NCBI RefSeq assembly: GCF_947487805.1
Contig: NZ_CANKXW010000008.1
Location: forward strand, 124,001 to 188,000
Direction of reading: 5' to 3'
From: an uncultured Tateyamaria sp.
GTDB lineage: Bacteria > Pseudomonadota > Alphaproteobacteria > Rhodobacterales > Rhodobacteraceae
Length of the DNA stretch: 64,000 bases
Shown: positions 18,061 through 28,377 of the stretch, in pieces
How the letters are laid out: every line of letters starts with the position of its first letter
Position numbering within the stretch: the stretch's first letter is position 1
Made by a program: the position numbers and the translations under genes
The notes under the pieces: model-generated
Database searches by the model: none
The model's input: only the letters and a program-made list of their open reading frames with translations
What the model was told of the DNA's origin: nothing

Positions 18061-20466
18061 CTAGTGCCGATCCGCCACATCTTTGAATTCTTGCGCGGCC
18101 TGTGTGGTCCGGGCGGCGTCCGGTGACGGTTTATTGTGCGGACCCTGCCGGTAATGGATCACGATCAACACCACGCCCGCCGCAAAAGCAGGGCCGAACA
18201 CGGCCGCCGATTTGAACAGGATCAAAAGGGTGATGACCGGGCGCAGCACGAATTCCCACATTGCGAGCCGGTGTCGGTCAAAGCCGTTCAGCACGCTCGA
18301 GATCAGGTAAAGCGCCAGCGCAAGGCGCACCAGCAGCAGGGCCAGCCCGCCCCAGTCGAGGGTTCCGTCATAGCCGGGCAGATAGGGCGACCCGCCCCCC
18401 CCACTGGCCGCAGGATCCAGCACTGCCTGTTCGATCAGCAATAGTTCGGGATACATCGCGAAGACGAACGGGATAAAGAAGATCACGAAGCCGGATTTCA
18501 CGGCAGAGACGCCGGTGGCCATTGCGTCGGCGCGGGTGATGGACGCCGCAGCAAAGGCCGCGACAGCCACGGGCGGTGTGATGGCGCTGGCCACGGCGAA
18601 GTAGAAGATGAACATGTGCGCGGTGAAGAGCGAGAGGCCAAGCCCCGCCAGAACCGGCCCCATGAGCAGCGCGACATTCACATAGGCTGGCACTGCGGGC
18701 ATCCCCATACCCAGCAGGATCGCGATCAGCATCGTGACGGCCAACGCAGTCAACTGAACGACCACGGACCCGTCCTGCCCGAGGTTGAGCGTTTGCAGCC
18801 AGCTGAGCACGTCAAGCGAGATGAAATTGGGCAGGCCCGTGAAAGACAGACAGAAGTCGATCACCGACACGGCGAGGAACATCAGGTACAGGGTCGACAC
18901 GAGGACCCCGGCGCCGGACAGGCCGTCGACGATCTTGCGCGGTTTTGCACGGACCGCGGGGTCAAGAAACAGTAGCGCCAGCAGCAGGATCACGGCCCAC
19001 CAGCCCGCGCTGCCTGCATCACCGGCGGCGTTCTGCCAGATCTGCTGGATCCAGGACAGGGAGGTCGCCTGGCACCCTGTGCCGGAGAACACGCGTTCCG
19101 CCCCGAGAAGACCGCCGAACAAGCCACATCCGACGCCCTCCTTGCTGGACACAAGAAGGGCGAGGATCAGGAGGATCGGCGCAAAGATCATGGCGAGGTT
19201 CAGGATGTCCTGCCGGGTGATCCGCATGTCGTCGGTGATCTCACCGATGGCGGTGATGCCCTGTTTGCGCGCCTGAAAGACGACCGACAGAAACAGGCAG
19301 AAGAAATAGGCCGCAGCGGGCAGGATGGCCGCCACGATGACTTCGGAATAGGGCACCACGGTCAACGCCGCGAGAACAAAGGCCGCCACGCCCATGACCG
19401 GTGGCATGATCGAGCCACCCGAGGAGGCCGCTGCCTCGACCCCACCGGCAAAGGTGGCGTTAAAGCCGCGCCGGAGCATCATAGGGATCGTCAGCACCCC
19501 GGTGGAGAGCACATTGACGATGGGCCCGCCCGAAATGGTGCCGAACATCGCAGACGACACGATGGCGGCGTGTGCGGGCCCACCGCGCAGGCGGCGCGTC
19601 CAGCGAAAGGCCAGCTTGATCAGTGATTGCCCCCCAGCAGACGCACCAAAGAGCGAACCCAGCACAAGGTAGGGAAAGATCGTGTTCAGCATGATATCGA
19701 GGAATCGCCCCAACAGCCCGGACGCGTTGTTGACGAGGATGTCGTGCACTTTGGGGCGGCCATCCGACAAAAGCCGCGGTTCGCCCGCCAGCTTGGTCAT
19801 CAGGTACTTGTTGATGTCGTCGGGGCCATGGACATACCAGACCAGCACCGTGGCGATCGTGTAGAGCGCGATGACAAGCGCTACGATGACCAGCGGCAGG
19901 CCCCAGACCTTGACGTTGTAGGCGAGGAAAACAAGGATCGTGACGCCCATGATCGCGACCAGCCAGCCACCGGTGGTGGCCACGCATTGCGGGTCTTCGA
20001 CCGTTGTGGGCGCGGGCAGTCCGTAGAGCTCTGCGATTTCGGTTTCGCGCGCCAGCGTTTCGGCCAAAAGGCGAGCGCGTTCGCCGGTGATCTGATCGAT
20101 CAGGCAGATGGATTCGATTTCTACCACGTAGGTCAGCGAAATTGTCAGCGCCGCGAGGACAAGGGCGGCATCCATCGCGAACCCTGCCATGCGCCTGCCC
20201 TGCCCCCGGTCGGACCATGCCGCCCAAACAGAGTGCTTGAGTGCGACGCAGATCATCATCGCGGCAAAGGCCAGCGGATAATACCATTCGGTCGGGTATT
20301 TGCGGATCGTGATCCAGTCGAGACCGGTCAGCGATTGCAGCCCCGCATCCAGCCCCGGAATGCCCGGTGTCGCATTGGCAAGCCCCACCAGCACGATGGC
20401 CACCGACAGCGCATAGAGCAGCCGGGTGCGCGCCGTCGCATCTGGATTGTGGTCGAGATCAGACAT
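18061..20466 (-). CDS. TRAP transporter permease, fused DctQ-DctM type (4TM/12TM)
   Basis: An 801-residue inner-membrane protein. The N-terminal part carries the small-subunit-like helices with a long loop (about 125-160). The large-subunit part then contains the conserved GASAGGQSLIKLAFRWTRRLRGGPAHAAIV, the GTISGGPIVNVLSTG block and EAAASSGGSIMPPVMGVAAF, hallmarks of TAXI-TRAP permeases. It drives sodium- or proton-coupled solute uptake with the TAXI binding protein encoded 66 bp upstream. As the third gene of the sulfatase operon it probably imports the sulfatase substrate or its product; the solute is unknown. Confidence 0.93.
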   Translation of the reverse strand: MSDLDHNPDATARTRLLYALSVAIVLVGLANATPGIPGLDAGLQSLTGLDWITIRKYPTEWYYPLAFAAMMICVALKHSVWAAWSDRGQGRRMAGFAMDAALVLAALTISLTYVVEIESICLIDQITGERARLLAETLARETEIAELYGLPAPTTVEDPQCVATTGGWLVAIMGVTILVFLAYNVKVWGLPLVIVALVIALYTIATVLVWYVHGPDDINKYLMTKLAGEPRLLSDGRPKVHDILVNNASGLLGRFLDIMLNTIFPYLVLGSLFGASAGGQSLIKLAFRWTRRLRGGPAHAAIVSSAMFGTISGGPIVNVLSTGVLTIPMMLRRGFNATFAGGVEAAASSGGSIMPPVMGVAAFVLAALTVVPYSEVIVAAILPAAAYFFCLFLSVVFQARKQGITAIGEITDDMRITRQDILNLAMIFAPILLILALLVSSKEGVGCGLFGGLLGAERVFSGTGCQATSLSWIQQIWQNAAGDAGSAGWWAVILLLALLFLDPAVRAKPRKIVDGLSGAGVLVSTLYLMFLAVSVIDFCLSFTGLPNFISLDVLSWLQTLNLGQDGSVVVQLTALAVTMLIAILLGMGMPAVPAYVNVALLMGPVLAGLGLSLFTAHMFIFYFAVASAITPPVAVAAFAAASITRADAMATGVSAVKSGFVIFFIPFVFAMYPELLLIEQAVLDPAASGGGGSPYLPGYDGTLDWGGLALLLVRLALALYLISSVLNGFDRHRLAMWEFVLRPVITLLILFKSAAVFGPAFAAGVVLIVIHYRQGPHNKPSPDAARTTQAAQEFKDVADRH

Positions 20467-20532
20467 CCGTTGCTCCGGGTGGGGTCAGGCGGGCGGCGCA
20501 TGTGCTGCGCCACCCGGTCGTTCAGATATGCG

Positions 20533-21579
20533 TCAGGGTTTGGCACAATCCGGCAGGGTATACCCCGCCTCTTCCCACGCGCGGACGGCACCGGGGTGGT
20601 ATTTGACAGGAACGGCACCGCACATGCCGGTAAAGGCAAGGTCGGTTTCCCCCAGCCAGGAGGCATTCATCATCGGCGTTTTGGCGCGGATATCATCCAA
20701 CCCCTCGATCAGGCTCTTGGTGAGTTGATAGGCCAGCTCTTCGTCCATGGTGGTGCTGACGACCTCGCCGCCCACTTCGGCGATGCCGCGGAACGTGTCG
20801 TCCTCGGATTTGATGGTGATGTTCGGACCGAACATGCCCTGTTCAAGCGGGATCGACACGCCGGCGGTGCCGGGCGCCTTGATGTATTTCTGGACCCCCT
20901 CGCTTTCGTAGGCCGCCTTGGGCATCGAAAATGCCACAATGCTGCCCGCCGCTGCGGCCTGGCTCAGGCGTCCGTCGGGGAAATTGGTGGGCAGGATCTG
21001 GGCGTCGGCGGCCCCTTCGGTGATCGTTCTGACCGCTTGGCCCCAGTTGACCTGGATGCCGGTATAGCCGTCCCCATCATCCAGTCCGGTCGCCAGTTTG
21101 ATGCTGGCCCGCGCCCGGTTCAAAGCAGCACCGCGCGGGGGGCCATTGTAGATTGTCGCCCCTTCGATTGCGTCCCATCCGCTAAAGCCGCTGCTTTCAA
21201 AGGCCGACAGCGTGTAAGTGCCGAAACGGTACGTGTAGAGCACCGACAGGTTCGACGCCAACTCGGCCCCCTTTTCCGCACCAAGTGCCGCATATGGGCC
21301 AAGGCCCTTGGACATCAGGAACGCCAGCAGAAACGGTGCGGCGGCGATATCGGTGCTGCCTTCGGCCACGTTTTGCAACGAATTGGTCAGGGTCTGGCCT
21401 GTGGCCACCTGAATATTGGCGACCCCGGCGGCCTGTGCCACCTCGCCCAGGCCCAGAACAGTGACGCCCGGCACCGCGAGCGGCGAGGCGGTCTCTGCCG
21501 TCAGGTTGGATTGGGCGGCGGCCCCGTTGGCCATCACCAGCGCCGCAAGGGCGCCTGCGAATTTCGTGAATTTGGACAT
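20533..21579 (-). CDS. TAXI-family TRAP transporter solute-binding protein
   Basis: About 348 residues from the ATG at 21579, which follows GGAGGAAAC. The longer frame upstream overlaps the sulfatase. A signal peptide (MSKFTKFAGALAALVMANGAAAQ, cleavage near 23) precedes a two-lobed binding domain with VATGQTLTNSLQNVAEGSTDIAAAP and MDEELAYQLTKSLIEG, typical of TAXI proteins. It delivers a periplasmic solute to the fused permease encoded downstream. The sulfatase gene ends 29 bp upstream. Known TAXI solutes are small carboxylates or amino acids; the ligand here cannot be read from sequence. Confidence 0.9.
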   Translation of the reverse strand: MSKFTKFAGALAALVMANGAAAQSNLTAETASPLAVPGVTVLGLGEVAQAAGVANIQVATGQTLTNSLQNVAEGSTDIAAAPFLLAFLMSKGLGPYAALGAEKGAELASNLSVLYTYRFGTYTLSAFESSGFSGWDAIEGATIYNGPPRGAALNRARASIKLATGLDDGDGYTGIQVNWGQAVRTITEGAADAQILPTNFPDGRLSQAAAAGSIVAFSMPKAAYESEGVQKYIKAPGTAGVSIPLEQGMFGPNITIKSEDDTFRGIAEVGGEVVSTTMDEELAYQLTKSLIEGLDDIRAKTPMMNASWLGETDLAFTGMCGAVPVKYHPGAVRAWEEAGYTLPDCAKP

Positions 21580-21608
21580 TGTTTCCTCCCAGAAGTCCTC
21601 AGGGTTTT

Positions 21609-23225
21609 TTACCCGCTTTTTAGGTGCTGCGGCATCGGCAAGCCGTCCGCAGCAAGTTCGTCCTTGTTCCAATAGCCGATGACGATGCCGGGCGGCTCGC
21701 GCTCGTCTGTCATCTGTTCAATGGTCGCCGAAGATCGGGTGATGCGCGTGTGGTGTTGGCGCGTCCATTCAAAGTGACGTGCCTGCATCTGTGCGACCCG
21801 ATCGGCGTGGTCCGGATCGCCGCCCAGATCGTGCAATTCGTCCGGGTCGATTTCCAGATCAAAGAGCATGGGCCGCATCGCTTCGACATGGATGTATTTC
21901 CACCGGCCGTCGAAAAGCATCACGAGACGGGCGTCGCGTTCATCCACGCCCACGTCCCGGCGCGCGTCGCGGGTGGAATAGTCGTATTCCGACACCACCA
22001 CGTCGCGCCATTCCCCACCCTGCCCGGTCAGCAGCGGCATCAGGGACCGCCCTTCGATCACGTGCGGTTTGGCCTGTCCGCCAAAGAATTCGAGGAAGGT
22101 CGGGGCAAGGTCGATCCCCTCGACCAATGCATCCGTTCGTGTGCCGCGGGTTGCATCCGCGGTCGCGCGCGGATCATAGACAATTAAGGGGATCCGTGCG
22201 GAACAGTCGTAAAACAGGTCTTTTTCGCCCAGCCCGTGATCGCCCATATTGTCGCCGTGATCCGAGCAGAACACGATCATCGTGTCCTGCATCCGCCCGC
22301 TGGTTTCGAGGTAATCAAAGAGGCGGCCCAGGTTGTCGTCGAGCTCCTTGATTAAGCCCATATAGACGGGGGCCACCGTGTCGCGCACGTGATCGCGGGC
22401 AAAGCTTTGGCAGATGCGGGTGTTGGCCCAGGACTGCATCAGCGGGTGGCTGTGTTCGCCGTCGCGCCGGACCACAGGCGGCAGGTCATCGGCGGAATAC
22501 ATGTCATTGTAGGGCGCGGGCGCGAGATAGGGCCAGTGCGGCTTGATATAGCTGAGATGGCACAGCCATGGTTTGGTCGGGTCCTGCGCCTCGACGAATT
22601 CGATGCCGCGGGTGGTCAGCCACGCCGTTTCGGAATGTTCCTTAGGCACACGTGCCGCCAGTGGTGCGCTTTCCAGCAGCCAGCCGCTTTGCGCCGTGCC
22701 GTCCGGTCCTATGGCGGTGTTGGCCCATTCTTCCCACGGGTTGTCGCCGTCCATGCCGTGGCTGCGCAGATAGGCGTCGTAATCCTCGGCGTGGCGATTC
22801 TTGTCATACGAAGAGTTGGTGCCGTCATCCCGCACGAACACCTCAAACCCGCACTGGCTGACCAAGGCGCCGATCGTGCTTTGTGGTGCGATGCCCAGCC
22901 GTTTCATCCCTTCTGCGTCGGGGCGCATATGCGTTTTGCCGACCAGCGTGGAGGTGACGCCGATATCGCGCAGATGATCGCCCAATGTGGGCTCGCCCAC
23001 GCGCAAGGGAAAGCCGTTCCATGTCGCACCATGGCTGCGCACGTAACGGCCGGTGTAAAAGCTCATCCGGCTGGGCCCGCAGATGGGCGATTGCACATAG
23101 CATCTGTCGAACCGGACACCGCGCGCGGCAAGGCGGTCAAGGTTGGGGGTGTCCAGATGCGTCGCCCCGAAACAGCTCAGGTAGTCCCAGCGCAACTGGT
23201 CCGCCATGATCCACAGGACATTCAC
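21609..23225 (-). CDS. Sulfatase-family hydrolase (alkaline phosphatase superfamily)
   Basis: About 538 residues from the GTG at 23225, preceded by GGAGGAGAG; the longer frame adds an unlikely 16 residues. Features are the N-terminal metal-binding NVLWIMADQ (Asp9), the formylglycine motif CGPSR (49-53) within SPICGPSRMSFYTGR, and CSDHGDNMGDHGLGEKDLFYD with further metal ligands. The Cys must be converted to formylglycine for activity. The substrate may be a sulfate ester or, as for related phosphonate monoester hydrolases, a phospho- or phosphonate ester. No signal peptide is seen, so hydrolysis should occur in the cytoplasm after import by the TRAP system encoded by the next two genes. It is divergent from a LysR gene. 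Confidence 0.9.
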   Translation of the reverse strand: MNVLWIMADQLRWDYLSCFGATHLDTPNLDRLAARGVRFDRCYVQSPICGPSRMSFYTGRYVRSHGATWNGFPLRVGEPTLGDHLRDIGVTSTLVGKTHMRPDAEGMKRLGIAPQSTIGALVSQCGFEVFVRDDGTNSSYDKNRHAEDYDAYLRSHGMDGDNPWEEWANTAIGPDGTAQSGWLLESAPLAARVPKEHSETAWLTTRGIEFVEAQDPTKPWLCHLSYIKPHWPYLAPAPYNDMYSADDLPPVVRRDGEHSHPLMQSWANTRICQSFARDHVRDTVAPVYMGLIKELDDNLGRLFDYLETSGRMQDTMIVFCSDHGDNMGDHGLGEKDLFYDCSARIPLIVYDPRATADATRGTRTDALVEGIDLAPTFLEFFGGQAKPHVIEGRSLMPLLTGQGGEWRDVVVSEYDYSTRDARRDVGVDERDARLVMLFDGRWKYIHVEAMRPMLFDLEIDPDELHDLGGDPDHADRVAQMQARHFEWTRQHHTRITRSSATIEQMTDEREPPGIVIGYWNKDELAADGLPMPQHLKSG

Positions 23226-23351
23226 TTGGTACTCTCTCCTCCGGTTCGGTGGCCATGTTCTGGCCAACGTCATGCGCGCCCGGTGCGGGCGTGCGTTTGG
23301 AGTGTTGCGCAGGACAACATATCAGTCCAATACTTCTTTTGCAGATCAGTG

Positions 23352-23364
23352 TATCATAGTGATA
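23352..23364. promoter_or_regulatory. Inverted repeat at the LysR start, candidate regulator site
   Basis: TATCA-TAG-TGATA is a perfect 5-bp-arm repeat ending at the A of the lysR ATG (23364). Further TATCAGT/GATCAGT half-sites lie about 20-40 bp away in the 138-bp divergent gap with the sulfatase gene. LysR proteins usually bind such dyads and repress themselves. This is inference from position and symmetry. Confidence 0.45.
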
Positions 23365-24272
23365 TGTTAATAGACCCAAGACACCTCGAGCAGATCGCCG
23401 TGATCGTCGATACCGGCACGCTCCGCGAAGCGGCGGAGCAGCTGGGCACGTCCCAGCCTGCGCTGAGCCGGACGGTTCATGCGCTGGAGACGCGGCTGGA
23501 GACGACGCTGTTTGAACGCGCCAGCCGTCCGTTGCGCCCCACCGTTTTGTGCTTGGCGCTGGCAGAACAGGGCAGTGCGATCCGGACGGCGCGCATCAGG
23601 GCCGCCGAGATGGTGGGCGTCGGCGCGCGCGGCTTTTTCGGCACGCTCAAGATCGGCGCGCCCCCCTTTTTGTGCGGGCGGTTGATGAGCACGGCCATCG
23701 CGGAATTCCTGTCGGAACGTGAAAACGTGCGGATCGACCTGAGCCCGAATTATAAGGCGCAGCTGCTGGACCGGTTGAACCACAACAAGGTCGACATGAT
23801 TGTCGGGCCCTCTAAATTCGTGGAGGCCGGGAATTCGGATTTCCGGGTCGAGCCGTTGTTCGAGGACACGAATGTGGTCGTCGGACGGGCCGGTCATCCG
23901 CTGCTGCAAGAGGATGAGTTTGCCGCGATCGGGTTGGAAAACACGACGTGGATTGGCCATCACGAGCACAGTGCCCTGCGGACGGACATGGAAAACGCGC
24001 TCAAGCAGTTCGGGGTTATGCGGCCGCGCATCGCGTTCCAGAGCGAATCCGCGGGCACGGTTCTCGATATCCTGCGCGCCTCCGATTTCCTGACCATCCT
24101 GCCGCGCCACGCGATCCGCAAGGATGGCAAGGACGGGCTGGCCACCGCGCGGTTGCGATTGTCCGACCATGTGCAGATCGTGAGCATCATCACCCTCGCC
24201 CAGACTGCGGAGACCAAGCTGACGCTGGATTTCAAGGAGCATCTGCGCCGTACACTCAGACGGATTGTGTGA
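23364..24272 (+). CDS. LysR-family transcriptional regulator (of the sulfatase-TRAP operon)
   Basis: About 302 residues from the ATG at 23364. The N-terminal winged HTH is clear (HLEQIAVIVDTGTLREAAEQLGTSQPALSRTVHALETRL, residues 7-45), and the C-terminal part fits a LysR periplasmic-binding-like sensor (VDMIVGPS...). The reading frame upstream of the ATG is only a sulfatase shadow. It is divergent from the sulfatase gene with a 138-bp shared regulatory gap, the classic arrangement of a LysR regulator and its target. Its inducer is likely the imported substrate or a hydrolysis product. Confidence 0.9.
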   Translation: MLIDPRHLEQIAVIVDTGTLREAAEQLGTSQPALSRTVHALETRLETTLFERASRPLRPTVLCLALAEQGSAIRTARIRAAEMVGVGARGFFGTLKIGAPPFLCGRLMSTAIAEFLSERENVRIDLSPNYKAQLLDRLNHNKVDMIVGPSKFVEAGNSDFRVEPLFEDTNVVVGRAGHPLLQEDEFAAIGLENTTWIGHHEHSALRTDMENALKQFGVMRPRIAFQSESAGTVLDILRASDFLTILPRHAIRKDGKDGLATARLRLSDHVQIVSIITLAQTAETKLTLDFKEHLRRTLRRIV

Positions 24273-24282
24273 CGGTCTGAGG

Positions 24283-25269
24283 CTATTTGGTTTGCCAGAT
24301 CTTGCGACGCCGTTCGCGCACCAGCGCATCGCCAGCGGGTGTGCCATCGTGAAATGTGCCAAACCATGCGTCCCACGGCGTTTCGGTCGAGCCGTAGTTG
24401 CAATCAAAGAACCGGTGGTGAAGCTGATGGTGGAAATCCCCCATCTCGATATCGAGCACGCCAAGTTTGACCTTGTCGAAGCCCACGTGAGAGGTCGGTG
24501 CGCCGATGCCGTGATGAAACATCAGGAACAGCATGTGAAGCGGATTGGACGGCACAATCAGAAAGATCACGATGTCCGTCAGCAGCACGAAACTTTCCAC
24601 AGGGTGCATGGCGAGGCCAGACCACGGGCCGGTGTTGATGTTCTTGTGATGCCAGGCGTGCACGTAACGATAGATCGGTTTCAGGTGCAGCACGCGGTGG
24701 TGCATGTAGAAATAGAGCCCCGCCCAGATCGGGATCAGCACGATCAGGGTGACAAACCATACCGGATTGCTGTCGAAGGTGATCAGCGTGACCCAGCCAT
24801 TGGCATAGGCCCACCACATGAGACATTCGAAAAACACCCAGAATTGCAGGGCGACAAAGGTCCAGAACATGTTGTCCCAGACCTGGGATCTGAACCAGAA
24901 CGTGCGCGCGCCCGTCATCATCGGCCGCATGTCATAGCGGTAGTCGTCCCCTTGCGCGCGGAACCTGAGCAGCAGAAGGTGCAATCCCCCCGCGACAGAG
25001 AACAGGATCACGAAATTGCGGATCCAGATCTCGGCGATCCAGTCAAAGGCAAAGCGCTGCGTGTCTGCAAGATCGGGCGCAAAGAACAGCCAGCTGATTG
25101 TCGCGGCAAAAAGCATGACAAACCGCATTCCCACGGGCTTCCAGCTTTTGAGCAGGAAGTGCAAAGACGCCAACGGTTTCATCGGCCAATCCCAATAGGG
25201 CGCATTCTGGATGGGCAGGGATGGCGTGTGGTTCCAGATCTGGCGGCGCTGGCGCGGCGTTTCGGTCAT
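24283..25269 (-). CDS. Fatty acid hydroxylase / sterol desaturase-superfamily membrane diiron oxygenase
   Basis: A 328-residue integral membrane protein with four or more helices and the eight-histidine diiron pattern: HHRVLH (190-195), HAWHH (204-208), His222, HH (252-253), His261 and HHQLHH (280-285). Members hydroxylate or desaturate lipid-like substrates using O2 and an electron donor. The start overlaps the stop of the HD-domain gene (ATGA), so the two are co-translated. The substrate is unknown; sterol chemistry is unlikely in this type of bacterium, and hydroxylation of a lipid or alkyl headgroup is the more natural guess. The stop lies 10 bp from the stop of the convergent LysR gene. 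Confidence 0.88.
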   Translation of the reverse strand: MTETPRQRRQIWNHTPSLPIQNAPYWDWPMKPLASLHFLLKSWKPVGMRFVMLFAATISWLFFAPDLADTQRFAFDWIAEIWIRNFVILFSVAGGLHLLLLRFRAQGDDYRYDMRPMMTGARTFWFRSQVWDNMFWTFVALQFWVFFECLMWWAYANGWVTLITFDSNPVWFVTLIVLIPIWAGLYFYMHHRVLHLKPIYRYVHAWHHKNINTGPWSGLAMHPVESFVLLTDIVIFLIVPSNPLHMLFLMFHHGIGAPTSHVGFDKVKLGVLDIEMGDFHHQLHHRFFDCNYGSTETPWDAWFGTFHDGTPAGDALVRERRRKIWQTK

Positions 25270-25892
25270 GTCATCTGCCCCCTTTGTCTCGCGGTCTCTG
25301 CGTCCTGTAGGGGCAGGCGCACGCCTGCGCGCACGACGTCCGGGGCGTGGGCCGTGCGGGCAAATACCGTGCGGACCATCGGGGCAAAGAATGCCAACGG
25401 CAGGCTGTCATAATCCGGATCAAAGCTCGCCTGATCCCAGCGTTCACAAAAGACCGCGCAATCGTCGAAATAGGGGCAGTCCCGATACGCGTCCCTCTTG
25501 TCAGGATTGGCCCCGACATGGGCCCCGTAATAAACAAGCTGAAAATCGCCGTGTTTTTCCACCGTCCACGCGCATTGCGCCCGCACGAATGGGCGCAACA
25601 CCGCCGCTGCGTATTCATCATGGTTATATGGCGCATAGATGTCGCCAATATCGTGCAGCAGCGCCGACACCACCCAATCGATATCTGCCCCGTCGCGCCA
25701 CGCCCGTGTGGCCGATTGCAGCGAGTGGCCGAGGCGCGTCACCTGATAGCCCGACAGTCCTTCGTCCAGCGTCACCAGCGCCGACAACAATCGGTCAGCA
25801 GTGCCCGACGCATAGGCAACTTCGTGTTCGGTAAGGAAATCATAGTCCTCTTTCGTGCCGTCTTTCATCTGCGTGAAACTGACGTGATCCAT
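25266..25892 (-). CDS. HD-domain protein, probable mixed-valent diiron oxygenase (PhnZ/MIOX-like)
   Basis: A 208-residue HD-fold protein. Candidate metal ligands are His56 (RLGHSLQSA), His80-Asp81 (LLHDIGD), His91 (NHDEYA), His114 (EKHGDF) and Asp153 (RWDQASFD). The 24-residue gap from the first His to the HD pair equals the one I recall for PhnZ (His34, His58-Asp59), an oxygenase that cleaves the C-P bond of hydroxylated aminoethylphosphonate. The extra conserved His and Asp argue for diiron oxygenase chemistry rather than phosphohydrolase action. It is the promoter-proximal gene of a two-gene operon with the membrane hydroxylase and is divergent from a LysR gene. The substrate is unknown; a plain HD phosphohydrolase remains possible. 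Confidence 0.75.
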   Translation of the reverse strand: MDHVSFTQMKDGTKEDYDFLTEHEVAYASGTADRLLSALVTLDEGLSGYQVTRLGHSLQSATRAWRDGADIDWVVSALLHDIGDIYAPYNHDEYAAAVLRPFVRAQCAWTVEKHGDFQLVYYGAHVGANPDKRDAYRDCPYFDDCAVFCERWDQASFDPDYDSLPLAFFAPMVRTVFARTAHAPDVVRAGVRLPLQDAETARQRGQMT

Positions 25893-25961
25893 TGCGATGC
25901 TCCCGCGATCAGTTGCTGGACGAGCATTGCCGCAATTCGCAACGGGAAGAGAGACGAAATC

Positions 25962-25990
25962 TTGACATGTCAGGATAACATTTGGTTATG
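25962..25990 (+). promoter_or_regulatory. Candidate promoter and operator for the GcvA-like LysR gene
   Basis: TTGACA (25962-25967), a 17-bp spacer and the weak -10 GTTATG (25985-25990) precede the ATG at 25998 by 7 bp. This would give a very short or leaderless transcript. A 10-bp palindrome TGACATGTCA overlaps the -35 box (25963-25972) and is a plausible autoregulatory site in the 105-bp gap shared with the HD gene. Confidence 0.45.
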
Positions 25991-25997
25991 AATTGTC

Positions 25998-26915
25998 ATG
26001 CGCCGCAAACTTCCACCACTCAATGCGCTTCTGGCCTTTGAAGCAGCCGCGCGCGCCAAGAGCTTTACCCGCGGCGCGGTGGATCACGGAGTTGCGCAAC
26101 CGGCCATCACGCGGCACGTCGGCAATCTCGAAGACTGGCTGGGCACCGACCTGTTCAAACGGCACGGAAATGGGGTCGAATTGACGCCCGAGGGCCAGGC
26201 CTTTGCCGATCACGTCACGCGCGGCTTTGACCTGCTGGAGGTGGGAACGCGCGAGGTGACCCGGCAACGATCTAGAGAATTGATCATCGGCGCGTCGTTC
26301 GGCGTCATGCATCTTTGGCTCATGCCACGCATCGCCGCCATGCGGACCGCCACGCCGACCACGATCAACTTTCTCACAGCAGATGATTACCGCAGCTTTG
26401 ACACAAGCGACGTGGATCTTTCGATCCGCTTTGGCAACGGGCACTTTCCGGGTTATGAAAGCGACCTGCTTTTTGCCGAGGAATGCGCCGTGCTCGCGTC
26501 GCCTGACTTTCTGGCGCGCCATCCGGGGCTGGACCCCGACAACCTGTGTGACACGTTGCAATCGCGGTTCCTGCTAGATTACGGCGATCCGCACGGTGTC
26601 GGATGGATGACCTGGGCGCGCTGGCTGGACATGAACGGCGCCGCGCCGGACCTTGCCGTTGAACGGCCCGAAATCCGGGCTTTCCCTGCGTTGCTCGACA
26701 TGGTCGCCGCGGGCGAAGGGCTGGCCATCGGCGCCAGAGGGTTCGAGGACACGATGGTGCGCGCGGGCAGCATCCTGCGCCTTGGACCGCCGGTGGGGCG
26801 GGTCGGGCACGGCTATTACCTCGTTTACCAGAACCGCGTCCGCAAGAAAGTCGGCTTTGACCGGTTGCGCCGGGCGTTGCTGGGGTCCGTATCCGCGCCG
26901 CAGACTACGCCCTAA
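25998..26915 (+). CDS. LysR-family regulator, GcvA-like
   Basis: A 305-residue regulator with the GcvA-type N-terminus (RRKLPPLNALLAFEAAARAKS), a winged HTH (residues 6-64: FTRGAVDHGVAQPAITRHVGNLE) and an effector domain containing VDLSIRFGNGHFPG, a characteristic GcvA-group segment. It is divergent from the HD oxygenase / membrane hydroxylase operon with a 105-bp gap and is the likely regulator of that pair. The downstream 190 bp to the next gene fragment carry no gene; base composition drops there. Confidence 0.88.
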   Translation: MRRKLPPLNALLAFEAAARAKSFTRGAVDHGVAQPAITRHVGNLEDWLGTDLFKRHGNGVELTPEGQAFADHVTRGFDLLEVGTREVTRQRSRELIIGASFGVMHLWLMPRIAAMRTATPTTINFLTADDYRSFDTSDVDLSIRFGNGHFPGYESDLLFAEECAVLASPDFLARHPGLDPDNLCDTLQSRFLLDYGDPHGVGWMTWARWLDMNGAAPDLAVERPEIRAFPALLDMVAAGEGLAIGARGFEDTMVRAGSILRLGPPVGRVGHGYYLVYQNRVRKKVGFDRLRRALLGSVSAPQTTP

Positions 26916-27347: not shown

Positions 27348-28130
27348 TGAACCGCGCCGGGTTTGCCGGAGGCTGATTTGTCTTAGTTACGCGGCCATAT
27401 CTGATCTTTCCAAGGTCGCGTAGAAGTTTGTCTCTGCTTCGGCTGGGGGGATATTCCCGATTGGCTCGAGCAGACGGCGGTTGTTGAACCAATCGACCCA
27501 TTCCAATGTCGCGTATTTCACGGCATCGAAACTGCGCCACGGCCCGCGCCGGTGGATGACCTCAGCTTTGAACAACCCGTTGATCGTCTCGGCGAGGGCA
27601 TTGTCATAGGAATCTCCGACACTTTCGACCGAGGGGGCGATCTTCGCCTCTGCCAGCCGTTCGGTGTACTTAATAGACAAATATAGCGACCCGCGGTCCG
27701 AGTGGTGCACCAATTGATCTTGAGCCGGGCTGCGTTGATGAATGGCTTGTTCCAAAGCATCGAGGACAAATCCGGCAGTGGCCGTGCGGCTGACCCGCCA
27801 TCCAACGATACGACGGGCGAAGACATCGATGACAAAGGCGACATAGACGAAGCCTTGCCACGTCGCGACATAGGTGAAGTCGCTCACCCACAGCATGTTT
27901 GGCGCTGGCGCACGGAACCGTGCGGTTCACCTTGTCCAACGGACATGGCAATGCCTTGTCGGTGATCGTTGTCTTTGGCGTCTTGCCGCGCACGACGCCC
28001 TCAAGGCCCAAATCCTTCATCAGACGGGCAACGGTGCAGCGTGCAACATCAAAGCCTTCTCTGCGCATTTGATGCCAGACCTTCCGCACGCCATAGACGC
28101 TGAGGTTTTCCTTAAAGACACCCGTCTTGG
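27348..28130 (-). mobile_element. IS3-family insertion sequence remnant
   Basis: The left end has a typical IS3-family terminal sequence (TGAACCGCGCCGGGTTTGCC) starting at 27348. The element contains the distal part of an IS3 orfB transposase. No orfA, no orfB N-terminus and no matching right terminal repeat are visible up to 28707, so the right part was deleted. The right border (about 28120-28140) is placed where the transposase homology fades into an unrelated reading frame. Confidence 0.75.
27387..28130 (-). pseudogene. IS3-family transposase OrfB, frameshifted and 5'-truncated
   Basis: Two frames together encode the OrfB body. The upstream piece has YGVRKVWHQM, then MRREGFDVARCTVARLMKDL and DKVNRT. 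The downstream piece, in another frame, starts near NMLWVSDFTYVATW and holds the DDE residues: Asp in VSDFTYV, Asp in HHSDRGS and Glu in NALAETI. A single extra base near 27918-27920 (the GGTTCC run on the minus strand) separates the frames. The family's N-terminal HTH region and OrfA are absent. The enzyme is almost certainly inactive. Confidence 0.8.
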
Positions 28131-28377
28131 AATGCGCGCGTTCGAGCAGGCGCATGGCGCGGCGTTTGATGCGGCGGCGGTCAAACTCGTCGAGCAAATC
28201 ATAAGGCGGGACCAGATCTTCCTTTGTGATCTTCCCCGCCGCAAGATCCGCCTCCTGCGCCTCTCGACGGAAATGCTTGAGGACCCTTTTCCACCGCTCC
28301 TCGATGTCGCGGAGATTCGCGATGTCATCCATGAAGGTCAGGTTGTGAAACGGTATGGTCGTCGTGGGGCGGGTCAT
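28120..28377 (-). pseudogene. N-terminal fragment of a gene fused to the IS remnant
   Basis: An ATG at 28377 has a good ribosome-binding site (AAAGGA, about 8 bases upstream) and opens a frame MTRPTTTIPFHNLTFMDDI continuing through a charged, helical segment (ERWKRVLKHFRREAQEADL, DEFDRRRIKRRAMRLLERA). It then runs directly into IS transposase sequence at about 28120-28140. I do not recognise the family. Strand and position allow it to be the 5' half of the gene whose 3' half lies at 27105-27347. If transcribed, it yields a chimeric protein that stops in the frameshifted transposase. Confidence 0.55.

Follow-up and report, generated by a model that had tools for sequence, protein, structure and literature searches.

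A putative HD-domain diiron oxygenase encoded with a membrane hydroxylase in an uncultured Tateyamaria sp., probably of a sister family to the phosphonate-type enzymes PhnZ and TmpB

We analysed a stretch of 64,000 nucleotides (hereafter the window) from an uncultured Tateyamaria sp. of the family Rhodobacteraceae (RefSeq assembly GCF_947487805.1, contig NZ_CANKXW010000008.1, positions 124,001 to 188,000 of the forward strand). The locus of interest consists of a gene for an HD-domain protein, a gene for a membrane hydroxylase of the fatty-acid-hydroxylase/sterol-desaturase type, termed FAH, and a gene for a LysR-family regulator (Table 1). The HD and FAH genes overlap by 4 bp, sharing ATGA at positions 25266-25269, and the LysR gene diverges from them, its start lying 105 bp from that of HD. 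An original prediction, made from the DNA letters alone, had given the coordinates and strands of these three genes correctly and had proposed that the two enzymes carry out a two-step oxidation, perhaps of a lipid-linked or alkyl substrate. In the analysis described here, the locus looks like a rare membrane-hydroxylase form of a larger HD oxygenase family, under an apparently private LysR regulator.

Table 1. Features of the HD-FAH-LysR locus (positions are those of the window).
Feature	Position	Strand	Basis
PhnZ/TmpB-like HD-domain protein (208 aa), a predicted mixed-valent diiron oxygenase	25266..25892	-	profiles, fold, alignment
FAH, FA_hydroxylase/sterol-desaturase-type membrane diiron hydroxylase, 328 aa	24283..25269	-	PF04116 match, His boxes
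LysR-family regulator, GcvA/choline-sulfate-regulator-like, 305 aa	25998..26915	+	profile matches
Candidate LysR box of the divergent promoter: ATAAC-N5-GTTAT, a perfect inverted repeat of the T-N11-A form	25975..25989		pattern scan

The HD protein matched the Pfam HD domain (PF01966) weakly, below threshold, and scored 20.6 bits against the myo-inositol oxygenase family (MIOX, PF05153; gathering cut-off 25). Its three best NCBIfam models were TIGR03276, the PhnZ model (32.3 bits, curated cut-off 214.6), TmpB (NF049941; 27.5 bits, curated cut-off 300), and PhnZ1, all far below cut-off; the same three models were matched at E ≤ 1 by all 48 HD-family members scanned. By these profile tests the protein is outside the phosphonate-type family. 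The structure predicted for it had a pLDDT (predicted local distance difference test) of 95. When this model was compared with the PDB by Foldseek, E ≤ 0.001 was reached only by 10 chains of PhnZ and TmpB (E 3.2e-6 to 3.0e-5; template modelling score on the target 0.63-0.71). The next matches were a tRNA processing enzyme (E 0.019) and, as the first named HD phosphodiesterase domain, that of PgpH (E 0.53), and MIOX was not among the 50 structural matches listed. From the model, we predict a PhnZ/TmpB fold for the HD protein.

The six metal ligands named in the original prediction (His56, His80-Asp81, His91, His114, and Asp153) are all present in the window protein and were conserved across 135 distinct proteins, the window included. 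They are invariant in 135/135, save His91 in 134/135, and such near-invariance is not expected by chance; all six are also kept in 36/36 distant relatives. The hhalign comparison of the HD family with 15 TIGR03276-type proteins (probability 98.4, E 4e-15) aligned the six ligands without exception. The His56-His80 spacing of 24 residues, which the original prediction had put equal to that of PhnZ, does equal the His34-His58 spacing in the PhnZ numbering of PMC7916636. The arrangement H...HD...H...H...D is the ligand set of HD oxygenases as given in PMC8177086.

The residues around the metals tell a different story from the ligands. Three positions that never vary among the 15 phosphonate-type proteins hold other residues in the window protein, namely Asp84 for the His of HDxGH, Glu150 for the Arg three positions before the last Asp, and Phe157 for the Lys four positions after it. 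The LQGG motif of the same 15 proteins is absent, and Gln118 (of FQ) stands in the place of the AKR Lys only in an ungapped register, where hhalign places a gap. The position of the YxxE gate, as described in PMC8177086, is occupied by L46-S-G-Y49 (LSGY), in agreement with the earlier statement that the PhnZ gate residues differ. The PhnZ/TIGR03276 signature as a whole (YxxE gate, HDxGH, AKR, and Arg and Lys around the last Asp) was therefore not found in the HD protein. In PhnZ, according to PMC7916636, the substrate is contacted by His62 and Glu27, and Arg158 belongs to a proton chain; we equated these residues with the corresponding columns of the alignment. The HD family has invariants of its own, including Tyr49, Arg53, Gln59, Asn90, Phe117, Gln118, Cys149, Gln154, Phe157, and Asp158 in the 135 proteins, and its diagnostic signature is HDxGD, NH, HxxFQ, CxxxD, and FDP. 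Most of these invariants are kept in the distant set, with Asp84 in 32/36, and Tyr49 (19/36), Glu150 (20/36), and Trp152 (16/36) are variable there. Because the phosphonate-type invariants are replaced, the HD family is unlikely to have retained a PhnZ-like phosphonate pocket. The consistency with which the metal surroundings differ from those of the phosphonate-type proteins argues that the HD family is a sister of these enzymes, with a substrate that is probably not a phosphonate.

To delimit the family, genome contigs were scanned; 502 related stretches were obtained and the 80 best of them used, for which reason the partner counts given below lean to subfamily A. Within these best 80 of 502, the HD gene's closest relatives with a name were mostly Rhodobacteraceae and Mesorhizobium. 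An HD homologue was found at E ≤ 1e-10 in 70/198 genomes of the Rhodobacteraceae. By best-match identity, and with limits of our own choice, three groups were distinguished: A (≥69%, 36 genomes), B (52-62%), and C (43-46%). Removal of 29 short duplicates (L128-L156) from the 176 loci with an HD match, and of 7 more with a stop, an unknown residue or fewer than 170 aa, left 140; after dropping proteins identical over residues 11-170, 134 distinct loci remained (101 A, 27 B, and 6 C). A 48-member HD profile was matched at E ≤ 1e-25 by 70/241 genomes of the class Alphaproteobacteria and, in a sample of the phylum, by 20/150 genomes, 7 of them outside the class. TIGR03276 matched 25/114 alphaproteobacterial genomes at E ≤ 1e-39, 9/114 reaching its cut-off; by these counts the HD and phosphonate-type families are of similar spread in Alphaproteobacteria. 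The HD family is present in the 1.2-Mb genome G382. A literature search, which covered titles and the starts of abstracts and few subscription papers, found the HD family described nowhere.

Two further copies were noted for their surroundings. The window's own genome has a second HD gene on contig 5, 58% identical to the first (L083:9675-10271), near IolB-like, Gfo/Idh-like, and sugar-catabolism genes (assigned by eye), and in a 1.2-Mb genome of 29% GC a homologue (L279:7839-8396) is flanked by purF-like and gshA-like genes, also by eye.

Genes near HD were tested for four hydroxylase types, with PhyH, FAH, and TauD required within 300 bp on the same strand and Rieske oxygenases within 8 kb. 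The commonest partner was PhyH, a 2-oxoglutarate oxygenase encoded directly upstream on the same strand in 50/134 loci (39/101 A, 11/27 B). An FAH of the window type lies directly downstream of HD in 8/134 loci, all of subfamily A (the window, L006, L014, L036, L114, L116, L119, and L120). The coupled pair thus recurs in the neighbourhood survey that the original prediction had called for, but it is not the main form of the system. The order PhyH-HD-FAH occurs in a single locus, L119, and the 4-bp overlap of the window is repeated in L014. Other oxygenases stand near HD more rarely: a TauD gene 115 bp away in L215, and a GbcA-like Rieske oxygenase (168.9 bits, cut-off 670) within 5 kb in three loci (L028, L037, and L040) out of 12 that have an amidohydrolase of one type within 1 kb; L037 also has a reductase and a ferredoxin-like frame, recognized by eye.

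Among distant relatives of the family, a TmpA-like gene overlaps or adjoins HD in L280 and L315 (343 and 334 bits, cut-off 400), and Rieske genes are found near HD in L304 and L318. Across 40 distant HD loci an oxygenase-type gene was present within the stretch in 9/40 compared to 0/40 control stretches (p 0.001), a test in which the query genes were chosen after viewing the HD loci, their source loci were not dropped, and all 40 loci were kept, including 5 with an uncalled HD reading frame. Linkage of HD to a hydroxylase gene is common, not universal, and the recurrent adjacency makes a coincidental neighbourhood of oxygenases unlikely. TauD and TmpA-like proteins have PF02668 in common, so that the partners fall into four families, and the hydroxylase partner appears to be exchangeable among PhyH, TauD/TmpA, Rieske, and membrane diiron FAH enzymes. 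As separate observations, L304:3375-4749 has tandem HD genes, immediately preceded by a Rieske oxygenase gene and followed by a second one at a distance of about 2 kb, and a class II aldolase gene stands beside HD in L286:6716-8108 (by Pfam) and in L295:7801-9183 (57% identity to L286).

The association with PhyH was also evident at the genome level. PhyH was found in 42/198 genomes at E ≤ 1e-40, 37 of which reached E ≤ 1e-65. HD was present in 36/37 of the latter compared to 70/198 overall (Fisher 7e-19) and in 41/42 at the looser threshold, the 5 genomes outside the 37 (E above 1e-54) all having HD. Likewise, HD occurs in 9/9 genomes with an FAH orthologue (7 A, 1 B, and 1 C; Fisher 6e-5, own genome included), and the orthologue adjoins HD in 6/9. 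Among the 36 HD-A genomes, PhyH was found in 2/7 with FAH and in 16/29 without it; these numbers are small, and we lean towards regarding FAH and PhyH as alternatives. In genome G191 (locus L118), LysR-FAH-PanB-like genes occupy a place beside valS, a gene named by eye, that is taken by PhyH-HD in other loci, an arrangement in favour of a common role.

The FAH protein scored 65.1 bits against PF04116 (gathering cut-off 31). The FA_hydroxylase superfamily is recognized by the histidine boxes HX3H, HX2HH, and HX2HH, and the eight box histidines (H191, H195, H204, H207, H208, H281, H284, and H285) are invariant in 15/15 aligned FAHs. The window hydroxylase would accordingly be a membrane diiron rather than a 2-oxoglutarate enzyme, as described originally; elsewhere the tested partner is mostly PhyH. 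No NCBIfam match and no PDB sequence match was found for FAH at E ≤ 1, and its low-confidence model (pLDDT 68.6) had no structural match at E ≤ 0.001. Its orthologues in 9 of the 198 genomes are 57-100% identical, followed by a gap to 46%, and in a tree the HD-linked FAHs and three HD-free orthologues form one supported group apart from the paralogues. In a literature search that covered few subscription papers, no paper was found that pairs a PF04116 hydroxylase with an HD oxygenase.

Taken as an operon, the two genes would encode a two-step oxidation of one small compound by the hydroxylase and then the HD enzyme, a reading that we hold to be rather probable. The hydroxylase (FAH here; elsewhere mostly PhyH, with a few TmpA-like, TauD, and Rieske enzymes) would hydroxylate the position beside the bond destined for cleavage. 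The resulting carbinol would be bound by the HD protein at its mixed-valent diiron site, where O2 would serve to break the neighbouring C-C or C-N bond, releasing a carboxylic acid and a leaving group; because the PhnZ-type invariant residues are replaced, the leaving group is probably not phosphonate. The LysR regulator would respond to the substrate or the product.

Several observations weigh against this two-step reading. None of the four tested hydroxylase types was found near HD in 70/134 loci (48 A, 16 B, and 6 C), so that HD may work with a distant partner or alone. An FAH orthologue without adjacent HD occurs in 3/9 genomes, and HD was also found in 38/58 genomes with FAH paralogues compared to 32/140, a correlation by which part of the co-occurrence may reflect lifestyle. 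FAH and PhyH are not strict alternatives, since they adjoin in L119 and are present apart in G036 and G168. Mapped on a quick tree, the FAH label requires 7 changes, and starred branches force 4; however, one HD-FAH clade was not rejected (approximately unbiased test, p 0.77; L003 and L030 not counted; the constrained tree has the better likelihood), and repeated independent recruitment is therefore not claimed. Finally, the fourth ligand is preceded by HH in several B and C members and by KH in the window protein, and HH is given for polynuclear HD phosphodiesterases in PMC8177086.

One alternative is that FAH and HD act on different substrates within one regulon, FAH working with a ketopantoate-hydroxymethyltransferase-like (PanB-like, PF02548) protein in hydroxymethyl transfer and HD being served by a separate hydroxylase located elsewhere. 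FAH-family genes do recur beside PanB-like genes (e.g. L118:9761-11719 and L115:130-1955), within 5.5 kb for 21/126 FAH-family genes of the 198 genomes, so that a module of hydroxylation plus hydroxymethyl transfer is possible. A PanB-like gene lies beside FAH in HD-linked L006 and L014 as well as in HD-free L118, and the FAH orthologues that lack an adjacent HD fit the same idea. The gene arrangement speaks for a shared task, with the 4-bp overlap in the window and L014, contiguous HD-FAH in the 8 loci listed above, and PhyH-HD-FAH in L119. In the window's own genome no PhyH at E ≤ 1e-40 and no PanB-like gene at E ≤ 1e-25 was found, and therefore neither alternative partner was found there. 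We regard separate substrates as unlikely.

A phosphonate pathway, in which the HD protein would cleave a C-P bond like PhnZ or TmpB while binding the phosphonate through other residues (e.g. Arg53 and Arg133), appears less probable still. It would account for the phosphonate enzymes being the nearest folds and families of the HD protein, for the TmpA-like genes beside HD in L280 and L315, and for a gene 1 kb beyond FAH whose best NCBIfam match is PehA, a phosphoric/sulfuric ester hydrolase (333.6 bits, cut-off 900). It is opposed by the substitutions at Asp84, Glu150, and Phe157, by the LSGY gate, and by the absence of LQGG, and among neighbours viewed by eye, with no systematic scan made, no phosphonate transporter or C-P lyase gene was noticed. 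A metal-dependent phosphohydrolase or other non-oxygenase HD enzyme with incidental neighbours would fit the subthreshold HD-domain match, the loci with no tested hydroxylase, and the HH of some B and C members, and we consider it very improbable given the invariant HD-oxygenase ligand set (PMC8177086), the Foldseek gap between HD phosphodiesterase (E 0.53) and PhnZ/TmpB (3e-6), and the presence of HD in nearly all PhyH genomes.

The two-step reading has its closest parallel in PhnY/PhnZ, which oxidizes 2-aminoethylphosphonate. The two systems share a hydroxylase gene adjacent to that of an HD diiron oxygenase, the fold, the six metal ligands and, in many HD relatives, a PhyH-family hydroxylase. 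They differ in that the HD protein falls far short of the TIGR03276 cut-off and has lost the phosphonate-set invariants and the YxxE gate, and in that the window hydroxylase is a membrane diiron enzyme. Since the tested partner of HD is mostly PhyH, we view the system as a variant of the PhnY/PhnZ layout, and it probably works in the same way. TmpA/TmpB, which oxidizes trimethylaminoethylphosphonate, has the TmpB fold in common with HD, and the neighbours in L280 and L315 score best against TmpA; the HD protein remains far below the TmpB cut-off, however, and the window lacks a TmpA-like partner. MIOX cleaves a C-C bond. It shares the ligand order and a weak profile match with the HD protein, but that match is below cut-off, MIOX is outside the structural matches listed, and no inositol gene was seen at the window locus. 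FAH is a full member of the fatty acid hydroxylase superfamily by score and histidine boxes, and is set apart within it by the lack of NCBIfam and PDB sequence matches noted above. The HD oxygenases named in the accessible part of PMC8177086 are MIOX, PhnZ, and TmpB only.

No evidence was found for the lipid or alkyl substrate proposed originally; the neighbours lean weakly to trimethylammonium compounds instead. A set of nine carnitine-, betaine-, sarcosine-, trimethylamine- or TmpA-type query genes had one or more matches in 12/40 distant HD loci compared to 2/40 controls (p 0.003; each query's source locus dropped, controls from 23 of 39 genomes), an enrichment that is suggestive only, as HD loci had been viewed before the queries were picked and some of the matches are weak, at 22-28% identity. 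In L281 a carnitine-dehydrogenase-like gene (343.8 bits, cut-off 414), a thioesterase gene, and a BKACE gene are beside HD, and a BKACE gene is within 45 bp of HD in L194, L078, and L292. MttB and dimethylglycine dehydrogenase are neighbours in L036 and L117, with dehydrogenase-like genes in 3/6 C loci; MttB was dropped as a substrate clue for the window's family, since its presence in 190/198 genomes deprives it of weight, a further point against our reading. Together the neighbours weakly suggest trimethylammonium or betaine-type compounds as the substrate class. A bolder proposal, which we consider very improbable as a whole, is that the family cleaves C-C or C-N bonds in hydroxylated trimethylammonium compounds with the partner exchanged among the four oxygenase families. 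Such a reaction would mirror that of TmpB, carboxymethyl replacing phosphonate, as in the conversion of carnitine, or a related betaine, to glycine betaine and acetate; the parallel is one of chemical reasoning. In Ruegeria pomeroyi carnitine is converted to glycine betaine by CdhABC (PMC12478193), so that a second route would be an addition and not the filling of a gap.

The LysR protein has HTH_1 and LysR_substrate domains and scored 167.8 bits against GcvA (NF008352, cut-off 288) and 170.2 bits against the choline-sulfate regulator (TIGR03418, cut-off 324.8). The earlier description of a private GcvA-like LysR thus stands in the divergent gene with its own palindrome and in the likeness to GcvA, although the score is below the GcvA cut-off. 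The pattern ATAACN5GKYAT, which was taken from the alignment of the LysR loci and is not independent of them, has a single site in the 64-kb window compared to 0.12 expected. At ≤2 mismatches the palindrome was found in 8/9 LysR cassettes, including L030 (LysR-HD, no FAH) and L117 (LysR facing FAH, no HD); among these nine cassettes, to which L119 and L120 do not belong, it was absent from L118, which has a different LysR. GC-matched 120-bp stretches contained it at ≤2 mismatches in 3.6% and at ≤1 in 0.25%. Its recurrence before LysR supports a dedicated regulator with a candidate site.

Further genes surround the locus. Positions 18061-24272 of the window contain genes for a TRAP fused permease, a TAXI binding protein, and the PehA-like sulfatase/phosphoesterase; another LysR-like frame, named by eye, is on the + strand and ends 10 bp from the FAH stop. 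On the other side, IS3-type transposase-like frames (27387-28377) lie between LysR and a ribonucleotide-reductase-like gene, both by eye.

The first step appears to be drawn from differing oxygenase families. Should this be correct, a general logic of hydroxylation followed by cleavage becomes testable, and an unrecognized route of carbon or nitrogen use by marine and soil bacteria may emerge.

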